A DNA stretch of 20,350 nt, taken from positions 1 through 20,350 of IMG/VR virus record IMGVR_UViG_3300028374_000079; one strand, given 5' to 3'. Shown piece after piece: positions 578-17,939 of the stretch. The DNA is from a virus. The position numbers were made by a program, and so were the translations under genes. The notes beneath the pieces are model-generated. The model was not told the origin of the DNA. It made no database searches and saw only the letters and a program-made list of their open reading frames with translations. Positions within the stretch are counted from its first letter, which is position 1. Each line of letters begins with the position of its first letter.

Positions 578-3500
578 TTAATCTTCTAGCATGAATTCCA
601 TCAATGCCTTATTAAAGATAGTAGTACTGAATGGAACAGCCATTACAGATCCGCGTATGTCCGCGTTTGTTGCTGTCCCTGATACTACCTTAGCAGGCAA
701 TGAAGCTGCCTTTACCATTGTGTTGACTGCGCCTGCTGCTGGAATGAAGTCAATGATATCGAACTCATTCACTCGTGCGCCTGTGTGGCCCATCTTTCGA
801 GTGTTCAGAACATCAGGTGCAAGGCCGAGCTGGTTAGCCATAGTGCCGATCTCAGGCAGTATAGACATCATGCCCATGTAGTTCACCGTCTGCTTTATGA
901 GGTCTTCCTGTGTACGCTCGTCTGAGGTAAGCCCCGCCTTAATAGACTGCACTCCATACGATACAGCAAAGCCATAGAGCAGTGTGCTCATGCTTGCCTG
1001 ATCGTGTATCCTCATGTTACGCAGAAGCTGCTTCTCAAATGCTACGATAGGGAAGTGCCTGAACTGCGTTAGCAATGAGCCTACAGTCTTGTGCATCCAG
1101 TTAGATGTCTCGCCAGCTAGTTGCCGTTGGACTACCTGTGCCGTGTGCCGGTTAATGCCGATTGCGAACTGCTCCGCTACATCCTCAGGCCACTTCTGGA
1201 TACCCAGCTTGGTTAGTGTACCCTTAGCATCAAACACAGTGTCGCCGTTAGCTACGCCCTTGTTGATCTGCTTAATGATCTTATCTATGTATACAGCGTC
1301 TATACCAATGTCCTCCATACGAGCTGCTGATTTAGCTAGCTGCTCAGGATTAACTGCAAGGTCTGCGAACTTGTTTATCATCATCTTAGCAGCCATACGA
1401 TGCTCAAAGTGACGTACCGTGTTCATCCCGCTGGCATAGCCTAGCATTACACTGGCCTTACCCAGCCCCTTGTCTACTATCTTGCCAAAGGTTGCTAGGT
1501 CAACTGCCCCAGAGATCTTGTCGTCAATAACGATGTCAGGACGATACAGCAGGTGGTCATAGTCGAAGTCGCCCAATAGAGGGCGCAGCTCATCAATGAC
1601 ATCATTACGTCCGCGCTTAACTTTCCTAGCGAGCGTTACAACGTCATCAACCGCAGGCATATTCTTAGCTGCGGATTTAAGCCCGAGCCTACCTACTACT
1701 GTGCCTACCTCAGCGAGCTGAGCAGCACCGACCATACCAAGCAGGTTAACCGTGGTCATCTGCTGGAACCTACGTGCGTTCTTATTAATACCGCCAGCAA
1801 TAGGAGTAGCTGTGAAGTAAGACTTGATATCATCCAAGTGCTCAGACAGGTTATCGTCACCGCCCTTCAGTCCCTTAACGCGAGCATTGTCCTTCATTGC
1901 AGCAGACTTCCAGCGATTCCATATACCGTCATTGGTGAAGCCCTTCTTAGCCATAGCTGAGCGGCCAGCAACGTCACGAGCATACTTAGAGGCGATTGAG
2001 TTCAGATCGTTGTCTACCAGATCCAGCAGGGACTTATCGCCACTGGTTATGTTCAGGTTGATCTTAGTCCTGCCCTTAGTAAAGGCTGGTCCTGCAGATG
2101 CCTCTTTCGCATCTAGTACACGCATCATCCCGTTGATCTGAGCATCCTCAATGCCCATGCGGCTGAGTGCTGTTCTGAGCTGTCCTCTGGCGTCCTTCGC
2201 AAGTAGACCAGCAATGTTAGTGTCAACACCAGCCATACCGTCAAGTGCCCGCTTCACTACAGCCGATGCGATCTCGTCTGCCACCTCTTTAGGAATGTCT
2301 ACAGACTGATAGCCCTTGCTGATTAGCTTAGTTGCAGGGCGGCTGCCTAGCTGCAGTACCCTCTCGCCTTTCCACACAAGCGGCACATAGCCTTTGCGAC
2401 TAGGAATATCCTGCATAGCTTCCCATCCAGACTTGCGTCCAATGGTTAGAGCCTCCTCCATCATATCGTCCCAGCGATCAGCAGCTTCGATTACGTACGG
2501 ATTAGTGTTTCTAGGTGTTTCACCCGTTGTGCGGGATTCCAGTACCTGACGCACTTGCAGATCAAAGTCGTCTCTTGCTGTTGTGTGGTACGAGCGCTTG
2601 TACCATTTATGGCCCGCGCTCTTAGCCCACATGCTGAAGTTTTCATTCAGTGGAATAACGCCGAGGGACAAGATGCGCTTCTCGTACATATCTTTGTACA
2701 TTGATGCTGTGTTGGATCGGCCGAGTGTACCTGTGCCGCCCTCCAGCAAGTCTGAAGCAATGCGCTTAACTACGTCAGACGGATGGTTGATTAGGCGAGT
2801 GAAGTCACTTGCTGTAATCTTATTTAGCACAGCAACACGGTTAGTTGGGTCTGCGTCCAGCCGCTCTTTAATACGGTTGGCCTGCGCCCATTCACCAGCA
2901 GCCTCAAGAATATCATCCTCGGTGCCTGAGGTGTCCACGATCTGCGGCTCATAGCTACGGTTACGCATAGCACCTACGCTGTCGTCGCCATCGTTAGATG
3001 CACGTACAATGTCGTCAACCAGTTTAGTATCCAGATCGTCACGCAGCTTAGAGGAGGCCGCTTTCATATCAGCCTGCAGTTCATCCCATGTACCGGCTAC
3101 TCGATCCTCAACTGTAACAGTCTTAGTACCACGAGGCTCAAGCCCCGCGAATGAGTACGCCTCGTCCAGCTTAGCTGCTACGTCTGATCCTACGTTCGCC
3201 TCTGGGTCCAGCCGGGAGACTGCCTGTGCAACATCCTGCTTGGCTCTTGGCTTCTTAGCATTGCTGAGAGTCTTAAGGTTAGGGAATGAGTTAATCACTT
3301 CCTCAGCCTCAAGTCTAGCTGATACTTCAATAGGACCACTACGGCGCTCAGCACGTAGCCCTGTGCTTACCAGAGCGTCCCTAGAGACCGCCTTAGGACT
3401 AGGGGGACCAGCGATATTGGATGGGTTCATAACGTCTGTCTGTGAGGCCCTAGGAGCGTCTGGCGTAGGTGCTTCACTAGCCTGCCCTGTTACCGTAGCA

Positions 3501-4153
3501 GAGGGGGCCTCATCCGGGGCACGTACCTTAGGCTTCATTATTGCGCCGATGCCGCCACCTAGCACGAAGCCAAATGACGCAGCGTACAGGATCTCTTCAC
3601 CGCCCTTGGTGTAATCGTCTGCGGCAAGGATGGCCTCTGAGCCACCGGTTACGCCTGCAGTTACTGCGCCCAGACGCAGGCCGTTCTTAAGTCTGCTTGC
3701 GCGATTGACCCACGATGCCGCTGCAGTCCACGGAACAAAGTTCTCTGGACTTGCTAACCCAGCAACCATCTGCGCAGATACGCCGAAGAATCCTGAGTCA
3801 GTAATAATCTTTTGGTTCTCTAAGTCTTCGATCGCACGGCCCCGTTCATACTGGGCACCGGCGAGTGAAGGCTCAAGAGCAATACTTGTATGGAAGTCCT
3901 GTGGTAGGCCATCCAATAGATCTTTCTTGTGTACTTGGAAATCGTAATCAGGATCAATGTCATCAGGCTTCTCTGAGGAAAGTGAATCCAGCACGTTGTA
4001 TGCCAGATTCTCCCTTTGGAAAGCCGCGCCGAGAGTCTCTCCGAATCCCGGCTCGTCGTCTTCGCTCCTAATCGGTGTGTACCGCTTCATCCAAGAAGGT
4101 GCCAATGCTTCAGGTTCAGCATTAGGTGTAGCGTTCTCTGTTACATCGGCCAT
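578..4153 (-). CDS. Internal virion protein D, T7 gp16-like
   Basis: This 1191-aa protein is the last and largest of the internal core proteins. In T7 such proteins sit inside the capsid around the portal and are ejected to form a conduit across the cell envelope for DNA entry. Assignment rests on size (T7 gp16 is 1318 aa), on position between the gp15-like gene and the tail fibre, and on a mostly hydrophilic helical composition. The T7 N-terminal lytic transglycosylase domain is not apparent: the N-terminus is acidic and proline-rich. Three glycine- and alanine-rich hydrophobic stretches lie at about residues 121-148, 161-178 and 188-206 (the last contains SFGFVLGGGIGAIM) and could insert into a membrane. 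The start is set by a strong AAGGAGG five bases before ATG; only 9 bp separate it from the previous stop. The role is inferred from position and family; similarity outside these features was not tested. Confidence 0.85.
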   Translation of the reverse strand: MADVTENATPNAEPEALAPSWMKRYTPIRSEDDEPGFGETLGAAFQRENLAYNVLDSLSSEKPDDIDPDYDFQVHKKDLLDGLPQDFHTSIALEPSLAGAQYERGRAIEDLENQKIITDSGFFGVSAQMVAGLASPENFVPWTAAASWVNRASRLKNGLRLGAVTAGVTGGSEAILAADDYTKGGEEILYAASFGFVLGGGIGAIMKPKVRAPDEAPSATVTGQASEAPTPDAPRASQTDVMNPSNIAGPPSPKAVSRDALVSTGLRAERRSGPIEVSARLEAEEVINSFPNLKTLSNAKKPRAKQDVAQAVSRLDPEANVGSDVAAKLDEAYSFAGLEPRGTKTVTVEDRVAGTWDELQADMKAASSKLRDDLDTKLVDDIVRASNDGDDSVGAMRNRSYEPQIVDTSGTEDDILEAAGEWAQANRIKERLDADPTNRVAVLNKITASDFTRLINHPSDVVKRIASDLLEGGTGTLGRSNTASMYKDMYEKRILSLGVIPLNENFSMWAKSAGHKWYKRSYHTTARDDFDLQVRQVLESRTTGETPRNTNPYVIEAADRWDDMMEEALTIGRKSGWEAMQDIPSRKGYVPLVWKGERVLQLGSRPATKLISKGYQSVDIPKEVADEIASAVVKRALDGMAGVDTNIAGLLAKDARGQLRTALSRMGIEDAQINGMMRVLDAKEASAGPAFTKGRTKINLNITSGDKSLLDLVDNDLNSIASKYARDVAGRSAMAKKGFTNDGIWNRWKSAAMKDNARVKGLKGGDDNLSEHLDDIKSYFTATPIAGGINKNARRFQQMTTVNLLGMVGAAQLAEVGTVVGRLGLKSAAKNMPAVDDVVTLARKVKRGRNDVIDELRPLLGDFDYDHLLYRPDIVIDDKISGAVDLATFGKIVDKGLGKASVMLGYASGMNTVRHFEHRMAAKMMINKFADLAVNPEQLAKSAARMEDIGIDAVYIDKIIKQINKGVANGDTVFDAKGTLTKLGIQKWPEDVAEQFAIGINRHTAQVVQRQLAGETSNWMHKTVGSLLTQFRHFPIVAFEKQLLRNMRIHDQASMSTLLYGFAVSYGVQSIKAGLTSDERTQEDLIKQTVNYMGMMSILPEIGTMANQLGLAPDVLNTRKMGHTGARVNEFDIIDFIPAAGAVNTMVKAASLPAKVVSGTATNADIRGSVMAVPFSTTIFNKALMEFMLED

Positions 4154-4162
4154 ATAGCCTCC

Positions 4163-7102
4163 TTATTTAAAACGTGGTTGTGAGATAATGTTAATCAGGC
4201 TGTCTGCCCATGTTGGATCAGTTGCGTACCCGGCCTCGTGAAGTAGTTGAATTTGCTCCTCTGGCGTGCTGGCTGACAATGCTTTCTGGTATCTCGGATT
4301 CTCGTTCAGGAAATTCCTTAGTCCCTGAGTAGCCTCAACATAACCGCCGTACACTTTGAAGCTCTCGTCCTCCCACTTCTGACGCTCCCCATCAATTACC
4401 TCATGCGTAGTGAACTTCTGGCCCTCTCCCTTTATGCCATGATAGTTACCGCCCTTAACGGCTGATCCCCAGCCAGTCTCCTGTCCAGAAATAGCAACCG
4501 CTACCTCAGGAAAGATATTTGAGTCCCCTAGGATCGCACGAGCAACTTCTAACGCCTCTGGCACAAACGTATCTGCTGAGGTGGCATTCGGCTTAGTGGG
4601 CAGGTTAGGGTACAGGCTGCGCTGGTACTCATCCGTCTTACCATCCGCGATCATCTTGTTCTGCGCGGGGGTGTTCTGGCGGGTGCTTGCATCCTTAGCG
4701 ATCTTGAACTTGTGGTAGTCCTCGTCGCTATCAATGCCGTTGTCATTCATCTCTTTCTGCTGAGTGCGGGCACGGAATTCAGCGTTATCATCCCTGAAGA
4801 CTTGCATCTGCTCCTCGACAAAGGTGTCGATAATGCTAGCAGCCCTGTTACCTACAATGCCGCCTGCGCTAACATCGTTCTCAAGTCCCTCGTCAGCAAT
4901 GATCTTATCGCGCAACTGTGCCCGGAGTCCGGGGTTGTTGCTGTCGAACCGATCAGCCATGCGGCTCTCGATAACAAAGGAACCTAGCCAGTTAGATAGG
5001 CCAGCTTCTGCTTCAGATTCTGTGTAGATATCTGACTCAACGGCCTCAGAATACAAACGCATCTTGCGCTCACGGTTCTGATCAGCAGCATCCATCTCAA
5101 TGGCCTGCAGCCGCTTGCGAGGTTTAACTACCGCATCCGAATAGGCTGCGCCTGCTGCCTTCATATCTACAGAGACTACATCTGAAATGATGTCATTCTC
5201 GTTCAAGTTAGCGAACATCAAAGAGCCACTTACCGGATCACCCATAAGTATTACATTGTCAGCATCAAAGTCAGGATTGGCAAGCAGGATCTGTTCCTTT
5301 TGGAACTCCACTGCCTCTGGTACATCCTTGTCCGCCACGCCCATCCACTTAGCAAGCGAGGTGCCGCCGTTATAAATAAGTGCGTCCCCTACCTGCTCGT
5401 GCGACTCCATGATCTTAATACGGGCTGCCTCAGTTGCTGATTCTGCATCCGGGTAGCCAGTCTGCATATAGGTATCGGCGAGGCGCTTGATACGTGACCG
5501 TACCATACCCTCGTTCTTTACTGCTGGAGCACTTGTTACGGTTCCCCAGATAGTATTGAAGAAGCCCTTGCCCATTACATTATCTACTGCATCGTCAAGC
5601 TCATTCGACATTTTAGTACGTTCGTCTGGAGTAAGATCCTTGGCGTTCTCTTTATTTGTCCGCACAAGTGCAGCCGCATCCCTGAGTTCCATCCCACCTA
5701 GCTCACTTAGATTACGGATCTTACCGAACTTAAGGCGGTTTTCTGCACTAAGGGTCCGCATAGCAAGGTCTGGGTTCTTAGCGTAATGAGCAGAGAAATC
5801 GCTGTACACCTCTTCAAAGGACCCCAGCAATGTACCGTCTTCCTTGAATGCGTTAGTCATGCCTGCGTCCCAGCGGCTAGCTCGATCACCGCTAACCGAG
5901 TTGTTGGCGGACCACAGCTCCATCGTCTGCGTCTCCTTTTCTTCAGCAGTAAGGGTTGGGTTCTGTTCTATCTGTTGCTCAACCGCCCTAGCTGTTTCCT
6001 GCTTTGTTTTAGGACTCATGCCTGCCTGCGATTCAATTTCCCCATTATAGTACGCCGCTTCATTAACCTTGCCATACATCTTCTTTCCACGAGAAGCGCG
6101 CCAGCTATTTTCGAGATTAGCGTAGTAACGGTTGCTGTTTTTCGTTGGGTACTTCTCTTGGAAGGACGCGGTGTTCTCTCTCATCTCAAGCAGGGTAGCT
6201 GAGTCAGCAATCCCGGCCTCTAGGTCAGCAAGATCATGCTGGTACACTGTGTTTAGCTTACCCTTCTCGTTAGCAGTATAGCGCTTCTTTGCTGACAGCA
6301 CTGAGCGTTCCTGCGCCGGGTTAAACTGGATCTCGTTCTCCCGTACATAGTTCAGTACAGTAGGGTCGCCCATATCCAGAGCAATAGCAGCCATATCAGC
6401 GTACTGCTGCTGGCGGAGTTCAGGGTCAGCAATGTTAGGTAGCGACAAGGATGAGATCAATCGTGAGCGAGCATCGCGCTCCCCTACCTGATCTCCGTTG
6501 TTCTTGTATCCCTGTACACTGCGGATGCCGCCTGAAATGTCTGCAGTAGACTGCGTGAGAGCGTCAGCACGACGCCTTTTGATATTAGCATTGGCTTGGT
6601 AGCGCCCTAGGTCCTGCACTAGCGGCATTGCTGCCTCAGTGATCATGTTGTCTGTCTCACGATCTCCTGTGAGCATACCCTTTACCCGCTGGCTTACTTC
6701 CTGCGCATAGGCGAGCGGGTCTGTCCCGTTCTCTCCGCTGTCAATAAGCTGCTTCTGTTCATTGTACCATGTGTCGGTTTTGATCTTAGCATCCATCGCC
6801 TTGAATCCACGGCGAGTAGGAGGAGCTAGGCCCTCAGCCATAGCCTCCCCGGATGATCGCATAGTCTGGCCCGCGAGGAAGTTAGCCTTAGCTGTCTTCT
6901 CCATTTCGGCCATCCCTAGCTTAGTCCCGAACTTAGCAAGCCCCTCCAGCAGCGGACTTGTACGGACTGTAGTATCTCCAAAGACAGTACTTCTTTCTGG
7001 AGCGAAGCTGTCAACTTGTTGAAGAGTTCTTACCTTCTCAGTCTGTGCTGCACGCTCAATGTTCTGATCGCGTACACCGCCGCGCTGTGGTGCTTCTGCC
7101 AT
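4163..7102 (-). CDS. Internal virion protein C (T7 gp15-like) with C-terminal glucosaminidase (GH73-like) domain
   Basis: A 979-aa internal core protein, expected to be ejected with its gp14- and gp16-like neighbours and to extend the DNA channel through the periplasm. The first ~840 residues are long, polar and helical, as in T7 gp15 (747 aa). The last ~132 residues (about 848-979) look like a FlgJ/GH73 N-acetylglucosaminidase domain: GQETGWG with probable catalytic Glu875, then NYHGIKG, FKVYGGYVEA, FLNENPRY and AGYATDPTWADSLINII with the family tyrosine at 959. Such enzymes cut murein glycan strands, here probably to make a local opening during infection. I chose the start at 7102 because AAGGGG sits six bases before that ATG and 10 bp after the gp14-like stop. 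The open frame continues 91 codons further upstream but only over the gp14-like gene. phiKMV-type phages also carry a muralytic domain at the C-terminus of this protein. Confidence 0.88.
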   Translation of the reverse strand: MAEAPQRGGVRDQNIERAAQTEKVRTLQQVDSFAPERSTVFGDTTVRTSPLLEGLAKFGTKLGMAEMEKTAKANFLAGQTMRSSGEAMAEGLAPPTRRGFKAMDAKIKTDTWYNEQKQLIDSGENGTDPLAYAQEVSQRVKGMLTGDRETDNMITEAAMPLVQDLGRYQANANIKRRRADALTQSTADISGGIRSVQGYKNNGDQVGERDARSRLISSLSLPNIADPELRQQQYADMAAIALDMGDPTVLNYVRENEIQFNPAQERSVLSAKKRYTANEKGKLNTVYQHDLADLEAGIADSATLLEMRENTASFQEKYPTKNSNRYYANLENSWRASRGKKMYGKVNEAAYYNGEIESQAGMSPKTKQETARAVEQQIEQNPTLTAEEKETQTMELWSANNSVSGDRASRWDAGMTNAFKEDGTLLGSFEEVYSDFSAHYAKNPDLAMRTLSAENRLKFGKIRNLSELGGMELRDAAALVRTNKENAKDLTPDERTKMSNELDDAVDNVMGKGFFNTIWGTVTSAPAVKNEGMVRSRIKRLADTYMQTGYPDAESATEAARIKIMESHEQVGDALIYNGGTSLAKWMGVADKDVPEAVEFQKEQILLANPDFDADNVILMGDPVSGSLMFANLNENDIISDVVSVDMKAAGAAYSDAVVKPRKRLQAIEMDAADQNRERKMRLYSEAVESDIYTESEAEAGLSNWLGSFVIESRMADRFDSNNPGLRAQLRDKIIADEGLENDVSAGGIVGNRAASIIDTFVEEQMQVFRDDNAEFRARTQQKEMNDNGIDSDEDYHKFKIAKDASTRQNTPAQNKMIADGKTDEYQRSLYPNLPTKPNATSADTFVPEALEVARAILGDSNIFPEVAVAISGQETGWGSAVKGGNYHGIKGEGQKFTTHEVIDGERQKWEDESFKVYGGYVEATQGLRNFLNENPRYQKALSASTPEEQIQLLHEAGYATDPTWADSLINIISQPRFK

Positions 7103-7108
7103 GATATT

Positions 7109-7114
7109 CCCCTT
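7109..7114 (-). promoter_or_regulatory. Shine-Dalgarno site that fixes the gp15-like start
   Basis: AAGGGG on the minus strand, six bases before the ATG at 7102. It overlaps the TAA of the gp14-like gene (7115-7113), suggesting coupled translation. It argues against the open frame's upstream ATG at 7375, which would overlap the gp14-like gene by more than 250 bp. Confidence 0.75.
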
Positions 7115-7721
7115 AGTTACCGATTCCGAGATTTCTGTTTGCGAACGATCCGAGTCCCTGTAGTTTGTCTGCAACGCCAAGGCTCTCTGCATCCCATTCT
7201 GATCCATAGGTTGTAGTAGCATAGTTAACGCCAGCATTAACAGCAGCGCCAAGGGCACTTGGAGCAGGCGTAGGTAGGAACAGGTTGTTCGTGGTCCTAG
7301 ACTGTACCTCAGCTTCGGTCTGCCTGCGGCTTCTTTCGAGTTCACTAACTGTCTCAGTAAGACTGTACATTTCATTGGCTTCTGCCTTAGCTGCGTTACG
7401 CTCGATGTCCATTATGGAATCGTCCACAGACATACCGGCTGTTCCAGCAGCGGCAGAGTTAACAATGGACGCCGCCCGAGATTTCATACGAGCAACGTCA
7501 ATGCTTGCGTCTGCGTTAACATACTGCTGCATAGCCCGCTGAATGTTCAGGGTAGTTACCGTCTGCTTATCATTACCGGCCTGTCTGGCCGCTGCATTGT
7601 TCTGATCTTGGATCTTCTGCTTGTGCTTCCCAAGGATGTTATTCATCTTAGCCTGTTGAGAAGCCTGCTTGTATCCCATGTATCCCTGTAGCGCCATGCC
7701 ACCGAGTAGTAGTAAAGACAT
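7113..7721 (-). CDS. Internal virion protein B, T7 gp14-like
   Basis: This 202-aa protein matches T7 gp14 (196 aa) in length, place and architecture. It has a short hydrophobic N-terminus (MSLLLLGGMALQGYMGYKQA), then a long Ala/Gln/Asn/Glu-rich helical region (about 20-145) and a glycine/alanine-rich tail. In T7, gp14 is the internal protein that ends up in the outer membrane of the infected cell and starts the ejection channel; the hydrophobic N-terminus agrees with that. It follows tail tubular protein B by 15 bp with GGGAGG before the ATG, and its stop overlaps the ribosome-binding site of the gp15-like gene. No gp13-like gene lies between gp12- and gp14-like genes as it does in T7. Identification is by composition, length and synteny. 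Confidence 0.85.
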   Translation of the reverse strand: MSLLLLGGMALQGYMGYKQASQQAKMNNILGKHKQKIQDQNNAAARQAGNDKQTVTTLNIQRAMQQYVNADASIDVARMKSRAASIVNSAAAGTAGMSVDDSIMDIERNAAKAEANEMYSLTETVSELERSRRQTEAEVQSRTTNNLFLPTPAPSALGAAVNAGVNYATTTYGSEWDAESLGVADKLQGLGSFANRNLGIGN

Positions 7722-15501: not shown

Positions 15502-15518
15502 GGGTGAGCGAGTCACCC
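15502..15518 (-). other. Hairpin over the RNA polymerase stop codon
   Basis: A perfect 6-bp inverted repeat, GGGTGA and TCACCC with a CTCGC loop, contains the TGA stop of the polymerase gene in its left arm. Only a weak T-rich stretch (TAATCTTTAG) follows. It could be a weak terminator for upstream transcription or an RNA-processing signal between the polymerase gene and the late genes. The stem is seen; the role is inference. Confidence 0.45.
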
Positions 15519-17939
15519 GAAAAAGTATTCTGACTCAAGCACCTCGTTGATGTCCATATCGCCAAGCGAGGGCGGCTCAGGCAGCTCAGTTTTAAGCTGC
15601 TCTTGTATCTCTCGTCTGAACTTATCAAGTAGGTCAACGTCCCTGTACATGCGGACAAACGCTACCCGAATAGCCCTATGTAGCTCAGGGATATCGCAGG
15701 CATGAGTACCAAAGTCATCGTGTACCATCATGTAGCTGTCAATGCCCTTTGACTCAAGCACTGTCTTAACTAGGTGACTAGCATCAAGGCTGTGGATTAC
15801 GTTAGGCGATGAGCCATTCTTCATTGCCCCTACGTCGATCTTGTCCGTGTACTCTCGTATCGTGTACTGGATACGGCTACCAGCTAAGGCGCTGTCTACG
15901 CGGTTAACCTTAGAGCGAACATCCTCTTGGTGTACTACGAATCCAGTAGGTGTCCTCCACACTAAGGGCTTACCCTCTTTGGCTGCAATGACTGCAACAG
16001 CTTGGAACCAGTCCATGCCCTCCCTTGCGGCCTTCACTACCTTACCGATGGAATCCCATACGGTATCGTTCAGTACATGCTTAGCCCCGTTGAACTCAGT
16101 GAACGTAGGGTACTGGTGCATGTGCTTAGTGCGCAGCCACTGGGCTATGTAGCCGCCTGCACTGTGCTTAGTAAGCCCATAGGGCAGGGTCATTACTGGT
16201 CGCTTTGTAGTGCTTCTGTCGATGCCGAGTCTAAGTAGCTTTTCACCAACAGGAGCACTATCGCTGCTGAGGCTATTAAGTCCTGCCACTGTAACTCTGG
16301 CGACTTCTCCGTAGATATCTCTTGGAGAGTCAGATGGAAGAACGTTTGTAGCCAAGCCTCCAACTCTGTCTCTGAGAAGTGCGGAGAAGTGCTGCAGACC
16401 GTTGCAGCTTCCGTCAAGGCCAACAGGGATATGGGAGATGAAATCGTTACCCTGCTCGTTGTAACCTTGATACTCAAAGCAGAAGGCCATGAACTGCAGG
16501 GGCTTGTCCGCCTCCCCGACGAACTTGGCAGATTCAATGGAGCAAGGGTCACTCGCAGCCCTAAGGATTCTATCGTGTAGCTCCTGTTCAACGTATCGTA
16601 CTCGTTCATTGTACTGCACTTTATCGTACCCGAAGAGACCAGCTCCTCTAACCTTAAACCAGAAAGCTCCCTCTTCACCAAGAGGCTTGCCAGTTGCGAA
16701 CTTAAGAAGTCCTTTAGAATAGTCTGCGCCCTGTGGGGACAGTCCTGAAGTGACTGGATAAAATCTGCCTCTGAAGTCGCAGGTGTATACGAAGTAGAAT
16801 CTATCATACTGTCTGTACTCCTCAACCATTGAATAGATGCGCCACATTCCTAACGCAGAGCCGAAGCGCTTACGCTCCTCGCTGTGCAGCGCTGCTGTCT
16901 CTCGCTTCCATCCCATCCACTCCTCGCGCTGTGCTTCCGTGAAGTCTTCCTTCAGGGTGCCTGCGACGGGGCTGGGCGGGAAGTTGTAAGGCCGTGTGCT
17001 GGGTAGCTTGATAACCTCTGTGATGTTCTGCTCAATGGCCCACTGTAGGAACTGAGCTGTTCTCGGGTTGATACACCACTCAGTAGCCTGCATCCTGTTA
17101 GCGCAGGTCATATGCTCAGCTAAATCGCTGTGCCCTATCTTGCTCTGGAATCGAGTTCGCACAAACGGGAACTTGGCCTGCATCTCAGGACTGTAGAATC
17201 CGCCGTGATTCATGCTCTCCCAATCCTTAGGCTTAACGATACATGGTGCGCCTAGGGGACGGACGAACTGCTGTATATCATTGAACTGCTTAAGCCACTC
17301 CTCCGTCTCTGCTGAGAGTATGAACCTGACAGGCTGTCTAACGCCTCTGGGAGGGGTCTTCACCTCGAAGAGGGGGGTTGTATCGAGTATAACTTTAACT
17401 ACGTTCTCGCCCACCTTAGCGCGCTCTGTGGCTGTCCAGTCATTCCACTCTACCTCAAAGGATCGCATCTTGTTGGTCAGTACTCTGTGCATGTGCCTGT
17501 AGTTAGTAGTTCCCTTAGTCTTGAAGTCGTTTATAACCGTGTCGTAGTACTCAGGATGCAGATACTTGAACCGTCCGAATTTGAGATCGTCCTCAATGCG
17601 CTGGCCAGTTTTTACAAAGCAGTCCTGCACCCCGCGCTCACCAGTGAACACGTTATTGAACAGCTCATTCAAGCCTACGCTGATACAGAACTGAGGATCA
17701 ACGCGCTTGATAAGACTTATGTACTTGCTTGGCCTGCCCCGTGTGGTTGTATTGTTGACACAGACATCCTCCAGTACTGACACACAGTCATCGAAGAACA
17801 TCTTGAATAGCTTACGGGCGGGTTCCGTTTCAGAACCACGGCCCGCATCTGCTGCAGAGCTGAACATAGCATTGTAACGATCCGCTGTGCGCTGCATCAT
17901 CTTGTCTTCCAGTGCGAGCTGTAATTCTATGGTTGCCAT
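15513..17939 (-). CDS. Single-subunit DNA-directed RNA polymerase, T7-type
   Basis: An 808-aa phage RNA polymerase (T7 is 883 aa) that transcribes the phage's own late genes. All catalytic motifs are present. Motif A is VGLDGSCNGLQHFSALLRD with metal-binding Asp509. Motif B is RSTTKRPVMTLPYG, with Arg575, Lys579 and Tyr587 equivalent to T7 R627, K631 and Y639. Motif C is VHDDFGTHA with Asp741, equivalent to T7 D812; T7 has Ser where this enzyme has Asp742. A CDFRGRFYP motif lies at about 387-395. The promoter-specificity loop should lie near 675-700, followed by SSPNVIHSLDASHL. The protein ends in an aromatic EYFFG, comparable to the T7 FAFA foot. GAGG precedes the ATG, overlapping the stop of the 41-codon gene upstream. 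Its place next to the structural genes is as in phiKMV. Confidence 0.98.
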   Translation of the reverse strand: MATIELQLALEDKMMQRTADRYNAMFSSAADAGRGSETEPARKLFKMFFDDCVSVLEDVCVNNTTTRGRPSKYISLIKRVDPQFCISVGLNELFNNVFTGERGVQDCFVKTGQRIEDDLKFGRFKYLHPEYYDTVINDFKTKGTTNYRHMHRVLTNKMRSFEVEWNDWTATERAKVGENVVKVILDTTPLFEVKTPPRGVRQPVRFILSAETEEWLKQFNDIQQFVRPLGAPCIVKPKDWESMNHGGFYSPEMQAKFPFVRTRFQSKIGHSDLAEHMTCANRMQATEWCINPRTAQFLQWAIEQNITEVIKLPSTRPYNFPPSPVAGTLKEDFTEAQREEWMGWKRETAALHSEERKRFGSALGMWRIYSMVEEYRQYDRFYFVYTCDFRGRFYPVTSGLSPQGADYSKGLLKFATGKPLGEEGAFWFKVRGAGLFGYDKVQYNERVRYVEQELHDRILRAASDPCSIESAKFVGEADKPLQFMAFCFEYQGYNEQGNDFISHIPVGLDGSCNGLQHFSALLRDRVGGLATNVLPSDSPRDIYGEVARVTVAGLNSLSSDSAPVGEKLLRLGIDRSTTKRPVMTLPYGLTKHSAGGYIAQWLRTKHMHQYPTFTEFNGAKHVLNDTVWDSIGKVVKAAREGMDWFQAVAVIAAKEGKPLVWRTPTGFVVHQEDVRSKVNRVDSALAGSRIQYTIREYTDKIDVGAMKNGSSPNVIHSLDASHLVKTVLESKGIDSYMMVHDDFGTHACDIPELHRAIRVAFVRMYRDVDLLDKFRREIQEQLKTELPEPPSLGDMDINEVLESEYFFG

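Follow-up and report, generated by a model that had tools for sequence, protein, structure and literature searches.

In phage T7, the internal virion protein gp15 forms a periplasmic tunnel and the N-terminus of gp16 carries a transglycosylase, while some gp15-like proteins, including those of K1E and K1-5, carry a lysozyme instead, according to the parts of PMC8954989 available to us. For phiKMV, lytic activity of gp36 has been measured, and SP6 gp36 is listed as a lysozyme, in the available parts of PMC5380687. Here we analyze the corresponding protein in positions 1 to 20,350 of IMG/VR virus record IMGVR_UViG_3300028374_000079 (20,350 bases, referred to as the window), whose minus strand encodes the late genes of a short-tailed phage of the T7 type that is known from metagenomes alone. 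The gp15-like protein of the window, which is 979 amino acids long, ends in a GH73 glucosaminidase domain. We consider it very probable that this protein occupies the gp15 position in an ejection apparatus of the T7 type, that its C-terminal GH73 domain travels in the virion and cuts peptidoglycan at DNA ejection, and that the domain is a cassette exchanged within this phage group.

The GH73 domain and its active site

The gp15-like gene runs on the minus strand from an ATG at 7102 to a stop at 4163. The initial annotation, made from the sequence alone, had read residues 848-979 (4561-4163) as a GH73 domain of the FlgJ type on the basis of GQETGWG (with Glu875), YHGIKG, and GYATDPTWADSL, all of which are present, and this family assignment is backed by Pfam, NCBIfam, a PDB sequence search, and the predicted fold. 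PF01832 (Glucosaminidase) matches residues 854-975 (4178..4543, minus strand) with an E value of 2.2e-19 and 70.7 bits against a cut-off of 30.2, and a six-frame search found GH73 at this one place only in the window record. The best NCBIfam match of the domain is FlgJ (TIGR02541, E 7.3e-22), although its 78.6 bits lie below the equivalog cut-off of 193, and FlgJ also ranks first when the gp15-like protein is searched against PDB sequences.

We then considered an AlphaFold2 model of residues 839-979, built from an 84-row alignment (A3), which has a mean predicted local distance difference test score (pLDDT) of 93.3. It shows the helical lobe and beta-hairpin of FlgJ-type hydrolases (root-mean-square deviation 1.5 over 114 residues to 4qdn; Foldseek E 3.4e-8 to 5dn5_A), in agreement with the comparison to FlgJ that the initial annotation had proposed. 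The top nine structural matches by Z score are all wall hydrolases of the FlgJ/AtlA/Auto type (4qdn 17.3, 7qfu 16.6, 3fi7 16.5, 2zyc 16.0, 3vwo 15.8, 3k3t 15.7, 5dn4 15.5, 5dn5 15.4, and 5t1q 14.2), followed by a type VI effector at 13.7, LytB at 9.9, and goose-type lysozymes at 7.7 and below. One may ask whether the domain is instead a lysozyme (muramidase) or a lytic transglycosylase, given that the helical lobe is common to the lysozyme superfamily (goose-type lysozymes reach Z 7.7 and MltE 7.2) and that distant glucosaminidases such as LytB and autolysin E score little or no better than lysozymes (Z 7.4-9.9). With Z scores of 14-17, however, the hydrolases of the FlgJ type rank far higher than the lysozymes, and no lysozyme or SLT family was matched in the gp15-like protein by Pfam at E<=1; profile and fold together leave this identity with next to no probability, and we reject it.

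The putative catalytic residues are in place. Glu875 (codon 4478..4480, minus strand), the putative general acid/base on the central helix, is Glu in 84/84 rows of A3 and aligns to a Glu of Sphingomonas FlgJ 3vwo in the PDB sequence search. Glu901 (4400..4402, minus strand), in the beta-hairpin, is likewise Glu in 84/84 rows; in Salmonella FlgJ (5dn5) its aligned residue is the Glu of TTTEYENGE. In Salmonella FlgJ the acid/base is Glu184, the counterpart of Glu875, and the hairpin residue is Glu223, whose replacement in E223Q lowers activity to residual levels (PMC4752226, available parts). Tyr959 (4226..4228, minus strand), which lies in GYATDP, and Lys891 and Thr961 are also invariant, but these counts are biased because the viral loci in the alignment were fetched by two patterns that contain all three residues; Glu875 and Glu901 lie outside the fetch patterns.

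The domain is retained by close relatives. One of them, L002, has the same gene but for 4 nucleotides, and three of these changes are non-synonymous. Two others, L007 and L008, have gp15 proteins 54-56% identical to that of the window, and GH73 is present in both (E 1.9e-24 and 6.3e-30). Among these divergent members, the window, L007, and L008, the GH73 domain (59-65% identical) is more strongly conserved than the core (53-56%).

Different lysins behind a shared gp15 core

In front of the GH73 domain the protein consists of a core, residues 52-715 (4958..6949, minus strand), that is common to relatives with another lysin, and a variable linker of about residues 716-853 (4544..4957, minus strand), delimited by block identities and motifs, that holds the junction to the lysin cassette. 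When the window, L007, and L008 are compared in blocks of 50 residues, identity is 22-52% across 701-850 and 54-76% from 851 on; block 751-800 has the lowest identity of the protein, and blocks 301-400 are also low. A NWLGxFVxESR-like motif and a DGKxDEY-like segment stand before the junction.

A gp16 profile search of IMG/VR returned 48 loci. Apart from the GH73 clade itself, L204, L205, L206, and L207 are closest to the window, with gp16 identities of 47-58% in the best segment. The gp15 core is shared by L207 (blastp 36% over 52-715, E 1.2e-134) and L204 (33% over 41-775); the L205 and L206 contigs reach only the end of the core and align there as far as they are available. Behind the junction these relatives carry other domains. 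L204, L206, and L207 have an RNNNPGNI-type domain (RGIRNNNPGNI...KAIIKHENG), for which a distant tie to GH73 is possible given a sub-cut-off PF01832 match in L207 (E 2.8e-5). L205 carries a lysozyme-like domain that matches the gp15 end of L239, a Phage_lysozyme by Pfam, with E 9.1e-8 and the lysozyme region of phiKMV gp36 with E 1.1e-4, both values coming from a set of a few dozen proteins. With Pfam, L205 gave no PF00959 match at E 1e-3 or better.

The comparison of L205 with L206 is the most direct. Downstream, starting just ahead of gp16, the two share 99.9% identity across 8,317 bp, and the 117 bp available upstream are 98.3% identical; between these shared flanks lie 506 and 402 bases, respectively, that have no detectable similarity and are both open in frame. 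This difference looks like a cassette exchange, although caution is warranted as it lies near both contig ends, where assembly can err. Given different cassettes between near-identical flanks, GH73 looks to belong to a set of lysin domains that can replace one another at the end of gp15. We lean, with some reservation, toward seeing the gp15 C-terminus of this phage group as a plug-in socket. Phages that are nearly identical elsewhere would exchange whole entry-lysin cassettes (GH73, lysozyme-like, and RNNNPGNI-type) at a single junction that follows the conserved core, and entry would be adapted to the host wall while the remaining ejection machinery stays unchanged.

In L204 (5581-5991) the gp15 core ends at C CCA AAG TAA and the lysin domain goes on in the -1 frame, where no start codon is close to the point at which it begins. 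The junction is followed by a hairpin (60 nt, -12 kcal/mol, z -1.7; 91 nt, -19.6, z -1.1). This arrangement, present in one contig only, would reflect an indel from sequencing or else a programmed -1 frameshift.

Family searches covered 32 of the 48 loci, and three of the other 16 are the GH73 clade itself. GH73 was over the cut-off in none of the 32 and below it in one. PF07486 (Hydrolase_2) was found in five loci, always in gp15-position open reading frames (ORFs), and PF00959 (Phage_lysozyme) in six, namely in 966-residue gp15-position ORFs of L236 and L239 and in four small ORFs. SLT occurred in two loci, both times in a gp15-position ORF directly before gp16 (L229, 1084 residues; L246, 1103 residues, where the gp16 reading is split), and on gp16 in none of the 32.

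Gene context and the proposed role in DNA ejection

The gp15-like gene lies between a gp14-like gene upstream (7113..7721, minus strand; PF24072 T7_gp14, E 1.5e-13) and a gp16-like gene downstream (578..4153, minus strand; PHROG 342, E 1.2e-143), in the order gp14-gp15-gp16. A mechanically called ORF of 1070 residues for the gp15-like gene begins further upstream, within the gp14-like gene. The T7-type single-subunit RNA polymerase (15513..17939, minus strand; PHROG 414, E 8.1e-246) adjoins the structural genes, and this order of RNA polymerase and then structural genes is the same as in phiKMV.

The gp16-like protein has no T7-type transglycosylase, as the initial annotation had supposed. It is shorter than its T7 counterpart (1191 vs 1318 residues), and the gp15-like protein is longer (979 vs 747), both as originally noted. 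No Pfam family matched the gp16-like protein at E<=1, while the control search found SLT in T7 gp16 (PF01464, residues 15-127, E 1.7e-31). PHROG 342 aligns only from profile position 219 of 1235, and when 16 gp16 proteins are aligned, the window protein has about 37 residues ahead of the columns that T7 residues 130-230 occupy. With a model built from the SLT domains of T7, BL198, and XAJ24, which these three match by construction, the window protein was not listed at E<=10; the L008 protein gave 0.5 bits (E 0.73, residues 985-1072), which we take as noise. A hidden SLT domain was thus found by neither Pfam, PHROG, nor the T7-type domain model. Separately, residues 548-1081 of the gp16-like protein match chain G of PDB 9sfn, a solved internal virion protein of 1337 residues (E 8e-21).

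By analogy with T7 and with the gp15-like proteins that carry a lysozyme, we infer that the GH73-bearing protein is packaged in the virion and that the domain is enzymatically active at entry. The GH73 N-acetylglucosaminidase, the C-terminal ~125 residues of the gp15-like protein, would be carried in the virion; as the protein emerges into the periplasm, the domain, behind its variable linker, would cut glycan strands, and the cut peptidoglycan would give passage to the gp15/gp16 tunnel and the DNA. It would do the job of the N-terminal lytic transglycosylase of T7 gp16, which is absent from the window, and would be one of several wall-cutting domains swapped as whole cassettes at the gp15 C-terminus of this phage group.

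Several observations weigh against this interpretation, and the first concerns the name gp15-like, which the initial annotation had used. It stands by position and by homology to L204, L207, and the internal virion protein that Vibrio phage 1.204.O encodes (E 2e-5 with tblastn; 97.2% with hhalign, residues 52-642), and once 1.204.O is added to the profile hhalign reaches Pseudomonas phage Kurepalu-1 (81.6%) and MedPE-SWcel-C56 (88.6%). T7 gp15 itself, however, was at 0.6% with a 3-sequence profile and 2.2% with 1.204.O added, and T7 gp15, SP6 gp36, and phiKMV gp36 stay at 2-5% by hhalign even then; neither hhalign nor the PDB sequence search detected T7 gp15 as a direct homolog. The core had no match in plasmids, and the full-length AlphaFold2 model, derived from 4 sequences (pLDDT 55, predicted template modeling score 0.26), was used for no fold claim.

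A second point is that two of the L002 changes, Q952K and G958E (window 4229-4249), fall inside the GH73 domain, and that G958E adjoins Tyr959 and hits a position at least 90% conserved in A3. One may postulate from this that the domain is a catalytically dead anchor that binds the wall and positions the tunnel. Glu875, Glu901, Lys891, and Tyr959 are nevertheless kept in the window, L002, L007, and L008, and L205 has a lysozyme-like domain in the place of GH73, and we hold a dead anchor to be highly improbable.

The third point bears on lysis. Among 38 ORFs of the longest sister contig (G001, 41,934 bp; loci L008, L115, and L116), a set that includes neither gp15 nor several of the capsid, tail, and polymerase genes, a Pfam scan found 21 families at E<=0.01, none of them a peptidoglycan hydrolase, and a six-frame search found one GH73 place. 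A role in lysis is therefore possible: the domain might be, or also be, the lysis enzyme, with gp15 reaching the periplasm late and breaking the wall in a phage that has no separate endolysin. G001 is, however, a linear contig by its classification and may be missing genes, the scan would overlook an endolysin that has diverged, and the PHROG families considered for G001 were 25 of 66. By eye the gp15-like N-terminus has no export signal, and the cyanophages that carry GH73 on gp15 (DSL-LC07, S-SRP01, and S-CBP1) also have a separate GH73 lysis gene. We regard lysis as an improbable function, if a little less so than a dead anchor.

Finally, we surveyed 19 phages, the window among them, for lysins on the proteins at the gp15 and gp16 positions (Pfam on all, limits E 0.01 to 1); neither protein had a recognized lysin in 6/19 (Lo5R7ANS, Kurepalu-1, JSF7, R8W, P-SSP7, and Vibrio 1.204.O), a group that is uneven as PHROGs were run on the gp15 of 8/19 and the gp16 of 2. 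Lysin domains on ejection proteins may thus not always be needed or not always be recognized. The C-terminus of 1.204.O looks like a transglycosylase by eye, but neither it nor the MedPE insert yielded a notable match in PDB sequence searches.

Two further observations concern the sister phage. An ORF of 118 residues after the terminase in L008 (16377-16733) has a lipoprotein-like N-terminus and a C-terminal hydrophobic segment and resembles a one-piece spanin by eye; it had no Pfam match and matched one PHROG of unknown function at E 7.1e-4. At L116 (contig IMGVR_UViG_3300036466_000070), the sister phage encodes an Acb2/Tad1 hairpin protein (5140-5508; PF24729, E 2.3e-18), of which there is none in the window record; the Acb2/Tad1 family counters CBASS defence.

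Our results suggest that, in ejection of the T7 type, the function of cutting the wall can be detached from the rest: its carrier (gp15 or gp16), its place there, and its chemistry vary, whereas the tunnel proteins are retained. This extends an earlier comment in the literature on swapped domains of ejection proteins (PMC8954989, available parts) to GH73 and to an apparently clean cassette exchange. A near-identical phage pair that differs in its cassettes offers a test of whether host wall chemistry determines the entry lysin.

Comparison with known systems

In the survey of 19 phages, a wall hydrolase stood on gp15 in 10, none of which had SLT on gp16. These are the window and S-SRP01 with GH73 (774-874 in the latter, plus M23); SP6 with PF00959 (770-905 of 978); Atu_ph03, TM33, RHEph27, SI01, and Paso with PF07486 near 240-375; and, by PHROGs, phiKMV (755-877 of 898) and MedPE (371-510). 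SLT was on gp16 in three, over the cut-off in T7 and just below it in BL198 and XAJ24. The counts were thus 10 with a lysin on gp15 only, 3 on gp16 only, 6 on neither, and 0 on both; as a total absence of phages with both would be expected by chance in about 9% of cases (hand calculation), mutual exclusion is not established. In Alteromonas phage R8W a lysozyme-like gene, just under the cut-off, stands alone between the gp15- and gp16-position genes (L027 2463-2945), as if the cassette were a separate gene, and the gp16-position protein (L027 2960-8416) has a staphylococcal-nuclease-like stretch over the cut-off (PF00565, residues 21-89, E 1.3e-4).

GH73 at the gp15 position is already present in sequenced cyanophages. 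PF01832 was over the cut-off in 7/7 scanned gp15-position proteins (those of S-SRP01, DSL-LC07, and S-CBP1 and of the IMG/VR loci L022, L058, L097, and L104); in the cyanophage-like contig L104 (3744-6798) the gene is read as two overlapping ORFs of 534 and 567 residues. The available parts of the S-SRP01 paper assign a glycoside hydrolase to ORF 52 (HHpred, 5DN5) and mention none for the gp15-position protein (PMC8557907). In the open-access literature we found no paper that names GH73 on a T7-type internal virion protein, subscription journals being mostly outside the search; in the available parts of PMC12031403 and PMC11172527, 'glucosaminidase' appears only in a list of enzyme classes. 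The location is therefore known, and what appears to be new is the evidence, drawn from sequence comparison, for an exchange site of different entry lysins.

The closest bacterial GH73 proteins among the matches listed are from Bacillota and mostly Gammaproteobacteria, and the 17 that were aligned are 31-46% identical. In a GH73 tree of 92 rows and few columns the window clade forms one group (support 99) whose neighbors are not resolved. Window and cyanophage gp15 GH73 domains were apart in a quick tree, but a tree that holds them together was 3.83 log units better (approximately unbiased test, p 0.568); tree and test favor neither a shared nor a separate origin of the two.

The seven scanned proteins with GH73, from the Synechococcus phages and the IMG/VR loci, resemble that of the window in having GH73 in the C-terminal third of the gp15-position protein. 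In the Synechococcus phages the gp14 and gp16 neighbors are so named in DSL-LC07 and recognized by gene order in S-SRP01 and S-CBP1. The cyanophage GH73 differs from that of the window in being internal, with another segment after it (an M23 peptidase in S-SRP01, E 3.3e-9), and the cyanophage core is not detectably homologous to the window core (hhalign 1.3%). The alphaproteobacterial Autographiviridae Atu_ph03, RHph_TM33, RHEph27, SI01, and Paso also have a wall hydrolase on the gp15-position protein, but it is of the Hydrolase_2 (SleB) type and lies near residues 240-375 rather than at the C-terminus; in Atu_ph03 (L011 10293-13868) Hydrolase_2 stands in tandem with a second wall hydrolase, Peptidase_M15_3.

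The initial annotation had pointed to phiKMV gp36 as a precedent for the location. This holds, but phiKMV is not the sole precedent, given the SP6 gp36 lysozyme at the same place and the three cyanophages. Like the window protein, phiKMV gp36 and SP6 gp36 bear a C-terminal muralytic domain on the protein between the gp14 and gp16 places, and their gp16-position proteins have no SLT in Pfam; unlike it, they carry a lysozyme-type domain rather than GH73, on cores that are not detectably homologous. The lytic transglycosylase of T7 gp16 has a presumed entry role like that proposed for the window GH73, but sits on another protein, at another end, and uses another chemistry. FlgJ (Salmonella 5DN4/5DN5; Sphingomonas 2ZYC/3K3T/3VWO) shares with the window domain its family, fold, acid/base Glu, and hairpin Glu, at ~27-32% identity in structural alignments, and in both cases the wall would be opened for the passage of a large assembly; FlgJ, however, serves the flagellum, whereas the window domain is fused to a phage ejection protein.

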